A stretch of DNA of 36,028 nucleotides from a virus, in IMG/VR virus record IMGVR_UViG_3300027498_000009, positions 1 to 36,028 of that record; one strand, given 5' to 3'. A program made the position numbers and the translations under genes. Shown here in pieces: positions 20,043 to 25,911 of this stretch (its first letter is position 1; each line of letters begins with the position of its first letter). Under the pieces are notes generated by a model that searched no databases, was not told the DNA's origin, and saw only the letters and a program-made list of their open reading frames with translations.

Positions 20043-20414
20043 ATGATCCGATTCCTCTGTTTGCTGTGGCCTGGGGCGCTGGGTTACCTTGGCGCTTACA
20101 GTGCGGCTTCCAGCACTTCTCGCGTGTTCGCGTCGATTCCAAACGGTCAAGTGATTGGTGTTGCTATAGAAATATTGGCGGTCTTGTTATTGCTAGAAGT
20201 AACGTTGTTTCTGGTGGTGCCGGCGTGGCGGCGGTTCTGTCGAGCAAGTGGATTGCTTTATGTGTTTGCCGGGACAATTCCAATGTTTTTCGCAGTGCTT
20301 CTGCCCGCGTACTTAGACGTTAGAGATCCGATATCTCATGTTTATTTTCTGGCCGGGGTTTGCGTATCAGCAGCCGGCGTTCGGATTCTGTACGGGTCTC
20401 GGAATAATGAGTGA
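20043..20414 (+). CDS. Four-helix membrane protein of the lysis block
   Basis: A 123-residue protein. I choose the ATG at 20043 (MIRFLCLLWPG), with AGGTGA 7 bases upstream; an ATG at 19998 has no RBS. Hydrophobic segments at about 1-20, 38-59, 71-90 and 96-115 suggest four membrane passes. First gene of the block, 150 bases after the tailspike gene; that gap shows no clear element. It may be a holin or antiholin. Not recognised by family. Confidence 0.6.
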   Translation: MIRFLCLLWPGALGYLGAYSAASSTSRVFASIPNGQVIGVAIEILAVLLLLEVTLFLVVPAWRRFCRASGLLYVFAGTIPMFFAVLLPAYLDVRDPISHVYFLAGVCVSAAGVRILYGSRNNE

Positions 20415-20790
20415 AGCCACATCAGTGGTGTCGAAAGCCGGAGCGATTGCCGGCGGTATAACCGCTGCCACTTCCAAGGTAAGAACTGTTGTTGCACCAG
20501 AGCTTTGGGAATTGCCTTGGGAGTCTTTGCTTTTCGCGTCTGGCATTGCGGCGTTCTTCGGCGTGGTCAGCAGGTTGCGCAAAATCGAAGAAGGCTCTCT
20601 GGATTGGAGAAGCTTCTGGACGGCCGCAATCTCAGGCGGTTGCTCAGGTCTGATCGTCTCTGCTTTGATGCTGGGAAACAAAGCCGATCCGCTCTATGTG
20701 TTCGCCGCAATGGTTGTGTTCGGACTTTTAGGCGGTAAGGGTCTTGACTTGATTCTGAATCGCGGCGCTAAACAAGTAGAGGGCAAGTGA
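20407..20790 (+). CDS. Putative holin
   Basis: A 127-residue protein (MSEATSVVSKAGAIAGG...), ATG at 20407 overlapping the previous stop by eight bases. It has a helix at about 43-57, a charged loop (RKIEEGSLDW), and two further helices (about 70-90 and 95-112), then a basic C-terminus. Three hydrophobic segments with a basic tail fit class I phage holins, which form the timed hole in the inner membrane. The call rests on topology and on its place before other lysis-type genes. Confidence 0.6.
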   Translation: MSEATSVVSKAGAIAGGITAATSKVRTVVAPELWELPWESLLFASGIAAFFGVVSRLRKIEEGSLDWRSFWTAAISGGCSGLIVSALMLGNKADPLYVFAAMVVFGLLGGKGLDLILNRGAKQVEGK

Positions 20791-20930
20791 TGACACTCTT
20801 TCTATCTCTCGGCTTCGTCCTGATGTGCAGCCAGCCGATGCCAGGGGCTAAGCATGGTTTGTTGATGATCGACCACCCGATGCTGTTGCGCTATATCCCG
20901 TTGAAGGTCAAATGCAAAGGTGACGTTTGA
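20790..20930 (+). CDS. 46-residue secreted or lipoprotein-like small protein
   Basis: ATG overlaps the holin stop (TGATG); the stop overlaps the next start (TTGA). The product MTLFLSLGFVLMCSQPMPG... has a short hydrophobic N-terminus ending L-M-C, close to a lipobox though Met at -1 is unusual, and a Pro-containing sequence. A truncated outer-membrane spanin (Rz1-like) is possible; this is weak inference. No inner-membrane spanin partner is apparent. Confidence 0.5.
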   Translation: MTLFLSLGFVLMCSQPMPGAKHGLLMIDHPMLLRYIPLKVKCKGDV

Positions 20931-21349
20931 TCGTTCGACTACAACGCCTGATCAGCGGTTCACATGGGACGTTTGGCGTGTTGCGCGCCCCAGGCTGGAC
21001 GGCGCTCAGCATTGAATGTCCGTGGATAAATAATATTCGCAATGTGTCGTGCATTCCTGATGGGCAATATCGAGTGGTGATGTCTTACTCGCCCAAATTC
21101 CGGCGGCGCATGTATGAGATTCTTGACGTACCGGGGCGGTCGGGTATTCGCTTGCACGGCGGCAACTTAGCCGGAGACCGGACCAAAGGGCTTATTACTC
21201 ACTTCTCAGGTTGCATAGGGCTTGGCATCCGACAAGGTGTGTTGAGCAACCAGCGGGCAGTACTCATATCTCAAGCGACCGTCTCGACGTTTGAGAGTCT
21301 CATGCAGCACAAAGACTTTGACCTAATCATTGAGGGCGACCATGCTTGA
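20927..21349 (+). CDS. DUF5675 protein with YkuD-like His/Cys motif, candidate wall enzyme
   Basis: A 140-residue protein starting at TTG with four-base overlap. Order of motifs: FGVL, then CIPDGQYRVV (residues 42-51), GIRLHGGN (H77) and THFSGCIGLG (H92, S94, C96). This order and the P-G-Y / H-G / (S/T)H..SGCI signature match the active site of YkuD-type L,D-transpeptidases, except for a two-residue insertion before Gly-Cys. The family seems to be DUF5675, of unknown function. It lies in the lysis block where an endolysin is expected, so a peptidoglycan role is possible. The enzymatic role is inference. Confidence 0.65.
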   Translation: MIVRLQRLISGSHGTFGVLRAPGWTALSIECPWINNIRNVSCIPDGQYRVVMSYSPKFRRRMYEILDVPGRSGIRLHGGNLAGDRTKGLITHFSGCIGLGIRQGVLSNQRAVLISQATVSTFESLMQHKDFDLIIEGDHA

Positions 21350-21956
21350 ATCTCTCGCGGGAATTGCTACGGGTGGCTGGGGGCCGATTGTTGGGTCACT
21401 GGTTGGATTCGCTGGCGGCATCGTTAATAAGTTCATGGCTTACAAAGTTCGCAAGCTTGAGATTGCCGACAATGCCAATGCTCGCGCCCACGCCAAAGAT
21501 ATGGCCGTCATCAATTTCAATCGAGAGAAAGAGCTGACGACGCTTGAGATTGAAGGCCGCGCAAGACAGGCATCAATTGATGGTGAGATTGACATCGAGA
21601 AGATGGACTTGGGCAATCTGGGGATCTCGATTGGCGCAGACCGAGCCGCCTACCTGTCTGAAGACGCCCAGGCAAAGAGCAAAGTGGTGATGTACGCAAT
21701 GGCGGTGGTCGATTGGGTGCGCGGCATGACGCGGCCCGTGCTGACTATCTCGCTGATCTATGGCGCATGGCACATAAACATGCTGTTGATCGGATTTCTG
21801 GAGACGCTCAACAACGGCGGATTGCCGGTCAATGTCGTGATTCAACTCACGGTTATTTCAGTTGTCACTATTCTGACGCTGGCAACGACTGCTGTGGGTT
21901 ACTGGTTCGGCTCTCGTCCGACTGTGCTCAAGAAGCTGTCCGAGGTGATTAAGTGA
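21342..21956 (+). CDS. GTA-type three-TM holin-like protein
   Basis: A 204-residue protein; I use the ATG at 21342 (MLESLAGIATGGWGP), overlapping the previous stop by eight bases. It has an N-terminal hydrophobic stretch (about 8-30), a long charged helix (about 34-100, coiled-coil-like: KVRKLEIADNANARAHAKD), and two C-terminal membrane helices ending in AVGYWFGSRPT. The layout and the final WFGSR match the holin family described from gene transfer agents (GTA_holin_3TM). It likely contributes to membrane permeabilisation. A second holin-type gene sits upstream. Confidence 0.65.
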   Translation: MLESLAGIATGGWGPIVGSLVGFAGGIVNKFMAYKVRKLEIADNANARAHAKDMAVINFNREKELTTLEIEGRARQASIDGEIDIEKMDLGNLGISIGADRAAYLSEDAQAKSKVVMYAMAVVDWVRGMTRPVLTISLIYGAWHINMLLIGFLETLNNGGLPVNVVIQLTVISVVTILTLATTAVGYWFGSRPTVLKKLSEVIK

Positions 21957-22258
21957 CAGACAAGCAGACCGAGTACCCGTGCGGTCCGTCCTGGCTATGG
22001 TGGCGCATCCGCAAATGGATATCACCTAAATGGGCGTGCCCATGCTGCCGAGCGCATGACAAAGGCTACACAGGCCAAGGGGATCGCAAGCTAGTCGATG
22101 CTGAATTCCGCAAATGCCTGATGATTTCTGCATGGCAGACGGGCGGCAGTGAGGGCCACGCCAATCGAGAGTTGCGGGCGTTCTTAGCGGGCATGTCGGT
22201 GACGGCGTTTGGCTGGCTGTTCAAGCGCCCGCGTTGGTGGAACGATCTGGGCCGCTGA
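21953..22258 (+). CDS. Phospholipase A2-like protein
   Basis: A 101-residue protein starting GTG (ATGA-style GTGA overlap). Residues 29-39 read C-P-C-C-R-A-H-D-K-G-Y, the PLA2 active-site pattern C-x-x-H-D-x-x-Y with His35 and Asp36, followed by VDAEFRKC (D49, F52, C55), which matches the second helix of bacterial and fungal PLA2-type enzymes. The N-terminus YPCGPSWLWWRI and the C-terminus FGWLFKRPRWW are Trp-rich and could bind membranes. If active, it would hydrolyse membrane phospholipids at lysis. No signal peptide seen. The motif is clear, but activity is inferred. Confidence 0.65.
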   Translation: MTDKQTEYPCGPSWLWWRIRKWISPKWACPCCRAHDKGYTGQGDRKLVDAEFRKCLMISAWQTGGSEGHANRELRAFLAGMSVTAFGWLFKRPRWWNDLGR

Positions 22259-22329: not shown

Positions 22330-25300
22330 ATGCCGATTAATGGGCAACCGTTTAAGGTCATCATGGCCACGGTATTTGACGACCCAAATCAGGCGGGCAT
22401 TCAGCCCTATCGACCCCCGTTGCCAAAGTACATGCTGGCGCTTGCGCATAATGATTTACCCAGCATCCCGGCTGCATACACCGCAGGGACTTATCCAATC
22501 CAGTTTGTAAACGGGCGCTGGGAAACAGAAAATCAGTTAGACATTACGACCCAAGACGCAATTAATGCCAAGGCCAGCTACGATGCCAAGCTGCCGCTGT
22601 GGTCGGTGCAGGGTGCGGTTACTGAGCTAATTGCCATTGATATTGAATGCTGGATGTTTCCGCCGTTCACTTTTGGCGCGGATCTGCAATACACCATTGA
22701 CAACATTGTGGACGCAGCACAAAAGCTGCAAGCCACATTGCAACAACCTCTAACCTTCTACAACCTGGGCCCCGCGTCCGGCTTAGTTGCGACCAAGCAA
22801 TACACTGCGCAAAACGACACGCTTGCGCCATTGCGGGGAGCCAATGACTTACTAATCCCGCAAATCAATCCGCACATTGCTGCATGGACGCCTAAGGCAT
22901 ACGCCGTTTACGACAGCGCAGATCAGACCACTAGCGACGCTGAATGGCAATGGTGGAAAGATTGGATTTCGTTTCAGGTTTCAGAAGCGCGTCGCTTGTC
23001 ACCCAATACGCCGATTTATCCTTATCTTTGGTGGGAATACGACCCGGTCGGAGATCAAGGGACAGGCACCGCAATTCCAATTAATCGGTGGCGAGAAATG
23101 CTCGACCACTGCTTATCTGTTGCTGACGGCGTAACAATCTGGGGCGGCGGTGCGGCAGAGTGGAGCGACTCAATGCCGTGGTGGGTCGAGCTACAGAGCT
23201 TTATGTCTGATAACGGTATAGACCAACCCAAGGAATCAAAAGTGCCATCATTTACTGCCGACACCGCCACCCTCAATGCCGTCATATCGGCGGCAGACAA
23301 TCCGGCCAAACGAGCGGCGGTCAATGCGGGGCTAGGCGAGGGCACACTGACCTTTGAGCTGGTCGCCCTGAACAGCATCATCACCGGCACATTCTCCGGC
23401 TCAGTTTGGGGTGATGCGGTGCTGGCTGTAGATAATGTGCAGCTTGCCAGCGTCGGCGGGCCAGGTGGGGCTGTAGCAGACGCCACGCGACTGACCGTTA
23501 CCAATGCAAGCGGGCGATTTGTTCGCTTCCCCCCTGGGGCGTATTCGTTTGTTGGCGCTGGCGGCTCGGACAACGTACAACCCGGCAATGAGATCCGGGT
23601 GACATTCCGATACGAACCTGATCCCGTAACGCCACCAGCAGACGATCTATACATCCCGGTTGCCGAGCTAATCGCTGGCATGGAAGAAGCCAGCACGTTA
23701 CAGCCCGCATTCGGTCAACACACCAACAATGAGGCGGTGATGCGGTCGCCAACCTATGATGCTGTTGTCGGCTACCTCGGGGCGGCCCCAGCAGGCCAAG
23801 ATGACTTTGATGACTTCGTTGAGGAAATTTACCCGTGGCCGTGGGCGTATCCGGCAACAGGGCATAACGTGGGCATCGGTTTACGGCTCGAGATGCGGCG
23901 GCTGAAAGTGTCGGCTTGTCGAAAGAGCACGGGGCAATGGCAAGACTTGCCCGAGTCAGGCTTAGGCCCAAACCTAGGCTGGAATGGCAACACGCAGACC
24001 GGCCCAAGCACCAAACTACGCAACGAAGCAGGCACCGGCAATTTATCTTTTGGGCCAACTACCATCAATGAAGGCGTGGAAGTCTGGCCGCCCGTTGAAA
24101 CCTACAAAGACAAAGCGTTATTCCGCGATACCAAAGCCTGGGGCATTGTGTTTCAGGCGCGGGTGATTGACGACAATGGCGACCCGTACAACGGCGCGGA
24201 TGGTCGCTTTGCTGTGCAGCTTGGATTTGACCAGTACGGGGGCAGAGAACGCGGCGGTGACGACAAGTATGCAGCGCCAGCCCGTTATCCTCGGACTCGC
24301 GCAGACGGCGGAAACAAGCGCTGGGATCTAGTAACAGGCGGCGACTGGACGACCATCGGCCTAATCACAATGGAATCGTTCAAGTTCAACGAGAATCCAC
24401 ATGCTGGCTACGTCCCGCCCTGGCCTTATGACCGCTCGCCTTATGTCCTCACCCGCCAGCAAGTGCTGGACAATCCGCCATCGTGGGCAACAGGGGGCGG
24501 CACATCAACCACTTCATCTATGTTCGGCGGTGTAGTCGATGCCGATCCAAACTATGTAGTCAGGCCACGGCCCGCCAATGCGGTGCGCGATCTGATGGTG
24601 GCAACGGACCCGGCATGGCTTTGCGGAGAATTCGCGACGGGTTGGCACCAATGGCTTGGCGTTAAACAAGGCGGTGTGACTTCTACGCATATGCGCCTTG
24701 TCGATTGGCGCGACAACGGCAACCCGGATGACGGTGGCATGTTCGTCGGCTCAGTCGTTAAGAGTCGGCACAACTACGAAACGGCGAGGATTGCCAGATG
24801 TGCAGCGCAGAGTAATGGGTGCCCCAAGATTCTGCCAATCTGGATGTTTCCCAAGTGGATGATTTCAGCGGCCAACATTGCAGAAGTTCAAGCGCGAGGC
24901 GGACAGGAAAATCAATTTGGGCAGATATTTAATATCACCCGATACCCGTCATTCCCTTATGGTGCACACCCGCCCGAAACGTGGGAGTACATCAAGGAGT
25001 ACGTGAGGGCGATCTATCGTCCCGTGTCTGAGTTGGGCCCAAATGGTGAGCCAGGACTAGGCTACACAAAAGACAATTGGCCAGTGCTTGAGCTGGGCAA
25101 CGAACAGAAGTTTGCCAGTCGCACTATCGGTGCGAGTCGTGCGTGGTTTGCGTCAAGCTCTGCTGTCAATACGCGCTGCTTTAATCTCATGACTATGCGT
25201 GAGATGAACGAAGGATTGAGAGCGCTGAAAGAAGTTGCACCGGCTGGTGTGTTGGTTGCTGCTGGCGGCTATGAAGGGGATTTCAACGGCAGTGTAGGCA

Positions 25301-25911
25301 AGACACTGGCCAATCCAAACGCTGAATACTCGTATTTCCAAGCGCAGATGCTGACCGATGACAATCACGGCGGACTTGGCATTGATCATGTCGACATTGT
25401 TTTTGCTCATCCGTATATGTACGCCTACAACCCAGAGCGCTCGCAAGTCGAGATTGACAATTGCAGAGCGCAAATCGAGTGGCTTGCCGCGCATTTGGGA
25501 AGGCCTGAAATTGCAGCGATACCATTGCATTGCAACGAAACCGGGCACGAGTCGCCAAGCGGAGTTGATAACACTTACGGCACCATCACGTATTTGATCA
25601 ATCAGCAAGGCGCAGCGTCCGCTTATGCCACCACTGCTCGCAACATGAAGCGGTCAGTTTTAATTTGGGTAGCCAATGGCTCAAAACAGAATTGCTTAGG
25701 CGGTAATCACTTTGTCGACCGTCCCTACGGAAACCCGCGTGATTCATATGGCGAGCGCCAGACTTACGGTGCCCCATCAGAAGTGCCCGAGCTGATCGCT
25801 GCAAACCAGTACGGCAATCAGGTGGTCAATAAAGTGGTGCGGCAAGCATACCAATTATCAGACGGGCAAATTGTTTGCTACTTTGAAGATGGCACAACCT
25901 TACAGGCATAA
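22330..25911 (+). CDS. Giant tail protein with two glycosidase-like domains
   Basis: An 1193-residue protein. N-terminal domain (about 1-300) reads as a TIM barrel: strand AIDIECWMFPP with a D-x-E pair (D104/E106), then PIYPYLWWEY and DGVTIWGGG, in the style of GH56 hyaluronidases. A linker (305-450) is beta-rich. The C-terminal half (about 880-1193) has WPVLELGNEQKF (acid/base candidate Glu925) and LHCNETGHES (nucleophile candidate Glu1070) about 145 residues apart, matching clan-A glycosidases such as GH39/GH5. It probably degrades host capsule or exopolysaccharide. GH family assignment is inferred by motif, and the folds would need confirmation. Confidence 0.65.
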   Translation: MPINGQPFKVIMATVFDDPNQAGIQPYRPPLPKYMLALAHNDLPSIPAAYTAGTYPIQFVNGRWETENQLDITTQDAINAKASYDAKLPLWSVQGAVTELIAIDIECWMFPPFTFGADLQYTIDNIVDAAQKLQATLQQPLTFYNLGPASGLVATKQYTAQNDTLAPLRGANDLLIPQINPHIAAWTPKAYAVYDSADQTTSDAEWQWWKDWISFQVSEARRLSPNTPIYPYLWWEYDPVGDQGTGTAIPINRWREMLDHCLSVADGVTIWGGGAAEWSDSMPWWVELQSFMSDNGIDQPKESKVPSFTADTATLNAVISAADNPAKRAAVNAGLGEGTLTFELVALNSIITGTFSGSVWGDAVLAVDNVQLASVGGPGGAVADATRLTVTNASGRFVRFPPGAYSFVGAGGSDNVQPGNEIRVTFRYEPDPVTPPADDLYIPVAELIAGMEEASTLQPAFGQHTNNEAVMRSPTYDAVVGYLGAAPAGQDDFDDFVEEIYPWPWAYPATGHNVGIGLRLEMRRLKVSACRKSTGQWQDLPESGLGPNLGWNGNTQTGPSTKLRNEAGTGNLSFGPTTINEGVEVWPPVETYKDKALFRDTKAWGIVFQARVIDDNGDPYNGADGRFAVQLGFDQYGGRERGGDDKYAAPARYPRTRADGGNKRWDLVTGGDWTTIGLITMESFKFNENPHAGYVPPWPYDRSPYVLTRQQVLDNPPSWATGGGTSTTSSMFGGVVDADPNYVVRPRPANAVRDLMVATDPAWLCGEFATGWHQWLGVKQGGVTSTHMRLVDWRDNGNPDDGGMFVGSVVKSRHNYETARIARCAAQSNGCPKILPIWMFPKWMISAANIAEVQARGGQENQFGQIFNITRYPSFPYGAHPPETWEYIKEYVRAIYRPVSELGPNGEPGLGYTKDNWPVLELGNEQKFASRTIGASRAWFASSSAVNTRCFNLMTMREMNEGLRALKEVAPAGVLVAAGGYEGDFNGSVGKTLANPNAEYSYFQAQMLTDDNHGGLGIDHVDIVFAHPYMYAYNPERSQVEIDNCRAQIEWLAAHLGRPEIAAIPLHCNETGHESPSGVDNTYGTITYLINQQGAASAYATTARNMKRSVLIWVANGSKQNCLGGNHFVDRPYGNPRDSYGERQTYGAPSEVPELIAANQYGNQVVNKVVRQAYQLSDGQIVCYFEDGTTLQA

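Follow-up and report, generated by a model that had tools for sequence, protein, structure and literature searches.

Enzymes of the YkuD L,D-transpeptidase family (PF03734; for example LdtMt1 and LdtMt2) use a Cys together with a His to form an acyl-enzyme at mDAP3. Other close comparators are the L,D-carboxypeptidases Csd6 of H. pylori and Pgp2 of C. jejuni, which are cellular cell-shape enzymes with extra domains, and Tlde1 (PF10908), a type VI antibacterial effector domain. In Tlde1a, the residues matching the active-site region are R115, H121, S128, H129, G130 and C131 (PMC9638812). Killing by Tlde1a occurs through linked carboxypeptidase and exchange activity, and its second His matters for crosslinking and, in part, for carboxypeptidase activity (PMC9638812).

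Phage endolysins with a YkuD catalytic domain are a recognised kind. The endolysin list of Oliveira et al. 2013, taken up in PMC5017753, includes YkuD as a catalytic domain with 3 entries; those entries were found by the PF03734 model, and the table in PMC5017753 does not include DUF5675. Some crAss-like phage proteins named ‘L,D-carboxypeptidase/transpeptidase’ or ‘transpeptidase catalytic domain protein’ are of the DUF5675 type by profile (cr50_1, 2e-18; cr112_1, a divergent relative, 2e-10), but these are database names only. In the literature searched, DUF5675 appears in two papers only, as a bare name, and no paper assigning it to lysis was found; the two Vibrio phage papers naming a DUF5675 gene make no mention of a holin gene or a lysozyme. 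A YkuD-type phage endolysin is therefore already known as a kind, from the Oliveira list and the crAss-like record names, while the breadth of DUF5675, its structural assignment and the evidence from its gene slot appear to be new.

The DNA analysed here (the window, 36,028 nucleotides) is a 36 kb virus record. Judged by its gene content it comes from a tailed phage, because terminase, head-tail connector, capsid, tail and recombination genes are present, and the record is possibly incomplete. It contains an overlapping run of five genes around a DUF5675 gene:

20338-20790, + strand: holin, superfamily III (LydA type), 5' of the DUF5675 gene (PF16083, 6.4e-05, below the Pfam cut-off; phrog_785 holin, 7.4e-05)
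20787-20930, + strand: small ORF, 46-47 aa, N-terminus hydrophobic (ORF list, sequence)
20927-21349, + strand: DUF5675 protein, 140 aa, proposed endolysin and predicted YkuD-fold cysteine peptidase (PF18925, AlphaFold2, PDB matches)
21342-21956, + strand: phrog_6637 membrane protein, proposed lysis partner of DUF5675 (phrog_6637, 2.6e-08)
21953-22258, + strand: phrog_6098 protein, 101 aa, small and phospholipase-like, last gene of the apparent cassette (phrog_6098, 2.8e-08; PLA2G12, 0.047)

The DUF5675 frame is open, starts with TTG and has AAAGGTG 5' of the start. Its product matched DUF5675 (PF18925) at 80.6 bits (E 1e-22; gathering cut-off 26.7 bits) and phrog_1501, annotated ‘unknown function’, at 5e-18. 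The YkuD model (PF03734) did not reach its gathering score and gave no match at E up to 1, and Tlde1 scored 13.2 bits (E 0.13), below its gathering score of 30.1 bits. An NCBIfam search with the protein found nothing, as did PDB sequence searches with the protein and its 46-member profile. A simple hydropathy scan detected no transmembrane segment.

The small ORF overlaps the holin gene by 4 nt and the DUF5675 gene by 4 nt. Its product has a hydrophobic start and a Cys (LGFVLMCSQ) and could be a small lysis protein. The ATG of the phrog_6637 gene overlaps the DUF5675 stop by 8 nt (ATGCTTGA). The phrog_6098 protein carries CCRAHDKGY, resembling the active-site signature CCxxHDxxY of secreted phospholipase A2, and could, to judge from this motif, attack membranes during lysis; the motif was present in the window and not found in relatives. 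Among the 52 window ORFs, no other peptidoglycan hydrolase domain was found in Pfam at E 0.01 or among the PHROG matches listed. Directly after the lysis genes lies a 1193 aa protein (22330-25911, + strand) with no Pfam match at E 1.

The original prediction was that the DUF5675 family is a derived YkuD-type cysteine enzyme. An AlphaFold2 model built from a 46-member alignment (pLDDT 96.7, pTM 0.89) was compared by VIA-align with the best 1000 PDB chains from Foldseek. The best 20 rows were all structures of L,D-transpeptidases or L,D-carboxypeptidases (Z 7.3-9.7, on a scale where, by the tool's own warning, Z near 8 can occur without kinship), and the next row was unrelated (Z 2.2). They included Pgp2 (Z 9.7; 110 residues, 3.0 A), Csd6 (8.8), LdtMt1 (8.8), Tlde1a (8.4), LdtMt2 (8.1), Bd1075 (7.5), DpaA (7.3) and other L,D-transpeptidases. 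Foldseek alone placed Csd6 first as its sole confident PDB match (probability 0.96), the other listed matches being at 0.08 or below. The exclusive occupation of the best 20 rows by this fold and the large gap in Z indicate that the modelled similarity to the YkuD/L,D-transpeptidase fold is a real fold match.

Profile comparisons pointed the same way. In a Pfam scan of the 46 members (24,736 families), the only families besides DUF5675 to match more than two members were two L,D-transpeptidase families: Tlde1, with 14 members matched (best 0.0024), and YkuD, with 4 (best 0.062). HHalign of a 129-member DUF5675 profile against a profile of YkuD-type domains from bacterial genomes placed H77 on the catalytic His and G95-C96-I97 on G-C-I. 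The score was 27.2, with a probability of only 29%; 30 column-shuffled controls scored at most 13.9. The predicted fold and this pairing of H77 and C96 with the YkuD His and Cys support the assignment to a derived YkuD-type enzyme.

It had further been proposed that P-G-Y, H77, H92 and C96 follow the order and spacing of L,D-transpeptidase active sites. The window protein contains P44-D-G46-Q-Y48, L-H77-G-G-N80 and T-H92-F-S-G-C96-I-G. T15, E30, N36, S41, G46, Y48, R71, H77, G79, N80, G95, C96 and S115 are invariant in 46 aligned relatives. A broader set of 129 non-redundant DUF5675 proteins was drawn from viral contigs, phage records and bacterial genomes; all keep E30, Y48, H77 and G95. The codons of most interest are as follows:

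21137-21139, + strand: Arg71, 6 residues N-terminal of His77 (127/129; the R115-H121 offset in Tlde1a)
21155-21157, + strand: His77, proposed catalytic base, in I/L-L-I-H-x-G-N (129/129; aligned to the YkuD IHG histidine)
21200-21202, + strand: His92, not conserved (38/129, indel loop)
21212-21214, + strand: Cys96, proposed nucleophile, in G-C-I/V/L (128/129, the sole exception being Ser; aligned to the YkuD S-x-G-C cysteine)

On this alignment, P44-x-G46-x-Y48, H77-x-G-N80 and G95-C96 form the conserved core of DUF5675 and are not chance motifs. The proposal held for H77 and C96 in both order and spacing. The distance between them is 19 in the window protein, and in the members measured it is 11 or 12 in 54 and 18 or 19 in 56. 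It did not hold for H92, which we reject as a catalytic residue and place outside the active site because so few relatives keep it and because it lies in a loop of variable length that about half of the family lacks. By analogy with Tlde1a, Arg71 is a possible binder of a substrate carboxylate.

The family shares with YkuD L,D-transpeptidases the predicted fold (Z about 8-8.8), the P-x-G strand and the order of catalytic His followed by Gly-Cys, but falls below the Pfam YkuD cut-off, is phage-encoded and lies within lysis cassettes. Positions 93 and 94 are variable among the 129 relatives, and the full [S/T]-H-G-C motif does not occur in DUF5675. Since the S/T-H before G-C is missing, the alignments place DUF5675 beside the YkuD L,D-transpeptidases as a sister family, outside PF03734. 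Csd6 and Pgp2 are the top structural matches, but are about 14-19% identical to it. The resemblance to Tlde1 lies in weak profile matches, in the offset of the conserved Arg from the His and in the short distance from His to Cys, which is 10 in Tlde1a and 11-12 in many DUF5675 proteins; in contrast, Tlde1 is secreted and has no phage lysis context, and Tlde1a has a capping subdomain and an S-H-G-C motif.

We regard a swap of genes at one locus as the strongest functional evidence. P2/HP1-like phages have a common tail-tube gene followed by lysis genes, and the genes after the tube gene are:

HP1: holin, lysozyme, Rz (Phage_lysozyme, 2.5e-30)
Kappa: DksA, holin, endolysin (Phage_lysozyme, 1.9e-27)
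Salinivibrio SMHB1: M15_3 peptidase (7e-14), three-TM holin (1e-14)
Pseudoalteromonas C5a: pesticin-type lysozyme (3e-40)
Vibrio vB_ValM-yong1 (tube 95% identical): SLT-like protein (weak, 0.035)
Vibrio 10N.286.45.B12_PE001: DUF5675 (1e-25), membrane proteins

These neighbours indicate that DUF5675 replaces several unrelated wall-cutting enzymes at a single position. The SLT-like protein in the endolysin slot of yong1, gp35 (NC_049477.1; L186, 3199-3696), is named ‘DNA-directed RNA polymerase subunit alpha’, probably a misannotation in view of its slot and its match.

Eight endolysin families (Phage_lysozyme, Amidase_2, M15_4, GH108, GH19, M15_3, SLT and Muramidase) were sought in 28 records that carry DUF5675, of which 20 were phage genome records ranging from 4.8 to 158 kb. 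None of the eight was present in 22 of the records. The matches obtained were one to M15_3, five to SLT and two to Muramidase. Phage_lysozyme, Amidase_2, M15_4, GH108 and GH19 matched nothing in the 28 records, the GH108 and GH19 results being discounted as the control genomes were silent for them. The positive controls worked for Phage_lysozyme (HP1 and Kappa) and M15_3 (SMHB1).

Fusions also link the domain to the cell wall. Two Bacteroidota proteins join an N-acetylmuramidase to DUF5675 (Muramidase, 5.5e-62 and 2.6e-64), one Cytophagales protein joins DUF5675 to SH3_3 (1.9e-13), and two jumbo-phage proteins of about 1280 aa, a virion-like size, combine SLT with DUF5675. The Bacteroidota fusions (L120, 2453-4327; L160, 68-1528) have N-terminal transmembrane segments, then the N-acetylmuramidase and a C-terminal DUF5675, and are apparent two-activity wall hydrolases by their domain content. 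Gene context and fusions together back the earlier view that the protein acts on peptidoglycan, with a predicted degrading role.

Four microviruses, whose complete genomes measure 4.8-7.2 kb, each have a gene for a DUF5675-type protein (4e-31 to 7e-12) among the few that they carry. For the same virus family, a role in lysis has been suggested for an M15 peptidase gained by horizontal transfer (PMC3394797), which makes the parallel a natural one. Other carriers of the gene are Cellulophaga phage phi39:1 and Pseudomonas putida phage pf16. In PV067912.1, a complete 4.8 kb Gokushovirinae genome, the DUF5675 ORF (L004, 1660-2064) is unannotated and lies between the capsid and pilot protein genes.

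The downstream partner recurs in relatives. phrog_6637 matched 32 of 33 aligned downstream neighbours and lies directly 3' of DUF5675 in 38 of 60 non-redundant viral loci. Of 32 genome loci, most of them proteobacterial, 22 have it in the same position; this is an independent figure, because the genome loci were left out of profile building. The two genes are thus tightly linked, both in phages and in prophage-like loci of proteobacteria. Its features are an N-terminal GGxTGLxG, charged helices, and C-terminal RGxxRPxLT and WWFGxR. GTA_holin_3TM weakly matched 2 of the 33 aligned relatives (best 0.0018), and the AlphaFold2 model is all helical (pLDDT 75.9) and too weak for the fold to be named. 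Among loci without phrog_6637, four have an Rz-like spanin gene next (up to 9e-27) and two have a holin gene (7e-26). A PHROG scan of upstream neighbours recognised a holin directly 5' in only about 3 of 39 relatives, so a holin immediately upstream is not a general rule. In crAss-like cr112_1, the DUF5675 relative is found two genes away from a gene annotated as lysis/holin. DUF5675 thus occurs in a lysis cassette or an endolysin slot, with a holin upstream in the window, a spanin or holin next in relatives, and the swap in P2/HP1-like phages. The phrog_6637 partner accompanies just 1 of 44 Bacteroidota copies, and for that reason the role of those copies may differ. Several copies occur per chromosome in Filimonas zeae (L151, L154, L167) and Desulfoluna limicola (L100, L104, L105).

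Against this computed background of family, conservation, predicted fold, gene slot and fusions, we consider it likely that DUF5675 is a YkuD-fold sister family with H77 and C96 that works here as an endolysin, probably hydrolysing the mDAP-D-Ala bond. The protein would have kept the YkuD fold, the P-x-G-x-Y strand, a catalytic H77 and a nucleophilic C96 in G-C, and would have lost the S/T-H. Made without a recognisable membrane segment, it would be released to the periplasm by the holin. Cys96, with His77, would attack donor stems at the bond that joins the L-centre of mDAP3 to D-Ala4, giving an acyl-enzyme, which water would resolve at mDAP3, releasing D-Ala4 onward. We infer hydrolysis rather than transfer from the lysis context. 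In 4-3 cross-linked peptidoglycan such a cut would separate adjacent strands (L,D-endopeptidase), and the same cut would also trim tetrapeptides (L,D-carboxypeptidase). The membrane protein encoded by the overlapping phrog_6637 gene would most likely take part in this lysis step, in the role of a holin or of a spanin-like partner. To our knowledge, no characterised endolysin has L,D-endopeptidase bond specificity.

Degradation of the wall has to be weighed against exchange chemistry. DUF5675 might be a Tlde1-like transpeptidase/exchange enzyme that puts other D-amino acids in place of D-Ala4 or forms 3-3 links, and would then weaken or remodel the wall while leaving cross-links uncut. By weak matches Tlde1 comes closest among Pfam families, the R71 offset equals that of R115, and Tlde1a does kill through linked carboxypeptidase and exchange activity (PMC9638812); however, the second His relevant to Tlde1a crosslinking and, partly, carboxypeptidase activity (PMC9638812) is missing in DUF5675, and an enzyme that trades places with lysozymes and peptidases is suggestive of rapid degradation. 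We regard exchange as unlikely, though it carries more weight than the other two alternatives.

A virion-associated lysin serving DNA entry instead of release is more doubtful still. The jumbo phages with an SLT-DUF5675 protein also encode a separate muramidase, so DUF5675 may serve entry in these phages, and in crAss-like cr50_1 the gene lies among tail and virion genes. In most phages, however, the protein is stand-alone, about 140 aa long and adjoins a holin, spanin or membrane partner, and it has taken the endolysin slot of P2/HP1-like phages. There is only a very slight chance that this YkuD-fold protein has another function altogether, as a cysteine enzyme on a non-peptidoglycan target or in protection of the host wall against other phages. 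A fold is no proof of substrate, and for many copies on Bacteroidota chromosomes the surroundings give no clear link to lysis, but fusion to SH3 and to two different domains that cut glycan strands argues against such a function, as does the slot swap. We therefore retain a hydrolytic endolysin as the preferred reading.

DUF5675 probably represents a widespread type of phage lysis enzyme that has been overlooked. More tentatively, and with some doubt, DUF5675 and phrog_6637 may make up a lysis module of two genes that is itself widespread. In that case an L,D-transpeptidase fold would have become an L,D-endopeptidase that cuts cross-links, employed by tailed phages, crAss-like phages and small single-stranded DNA microviruses, and phrog_6637, where present, would supply holin and/or spanin function. 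If the endolysin assignment is correct, it would give a function to a large ‘unknown’ family (PF18925, phrog_1501), identify the lysis enzyme still missing from many marine, gut and single-stranded DNA phages, and mark phrog_6637 as a candidate lysis partner. Endolysins would gain an L,D-bond-cutting class, and a fold used mainly for building cross-links would be seen to serve wall breakage.
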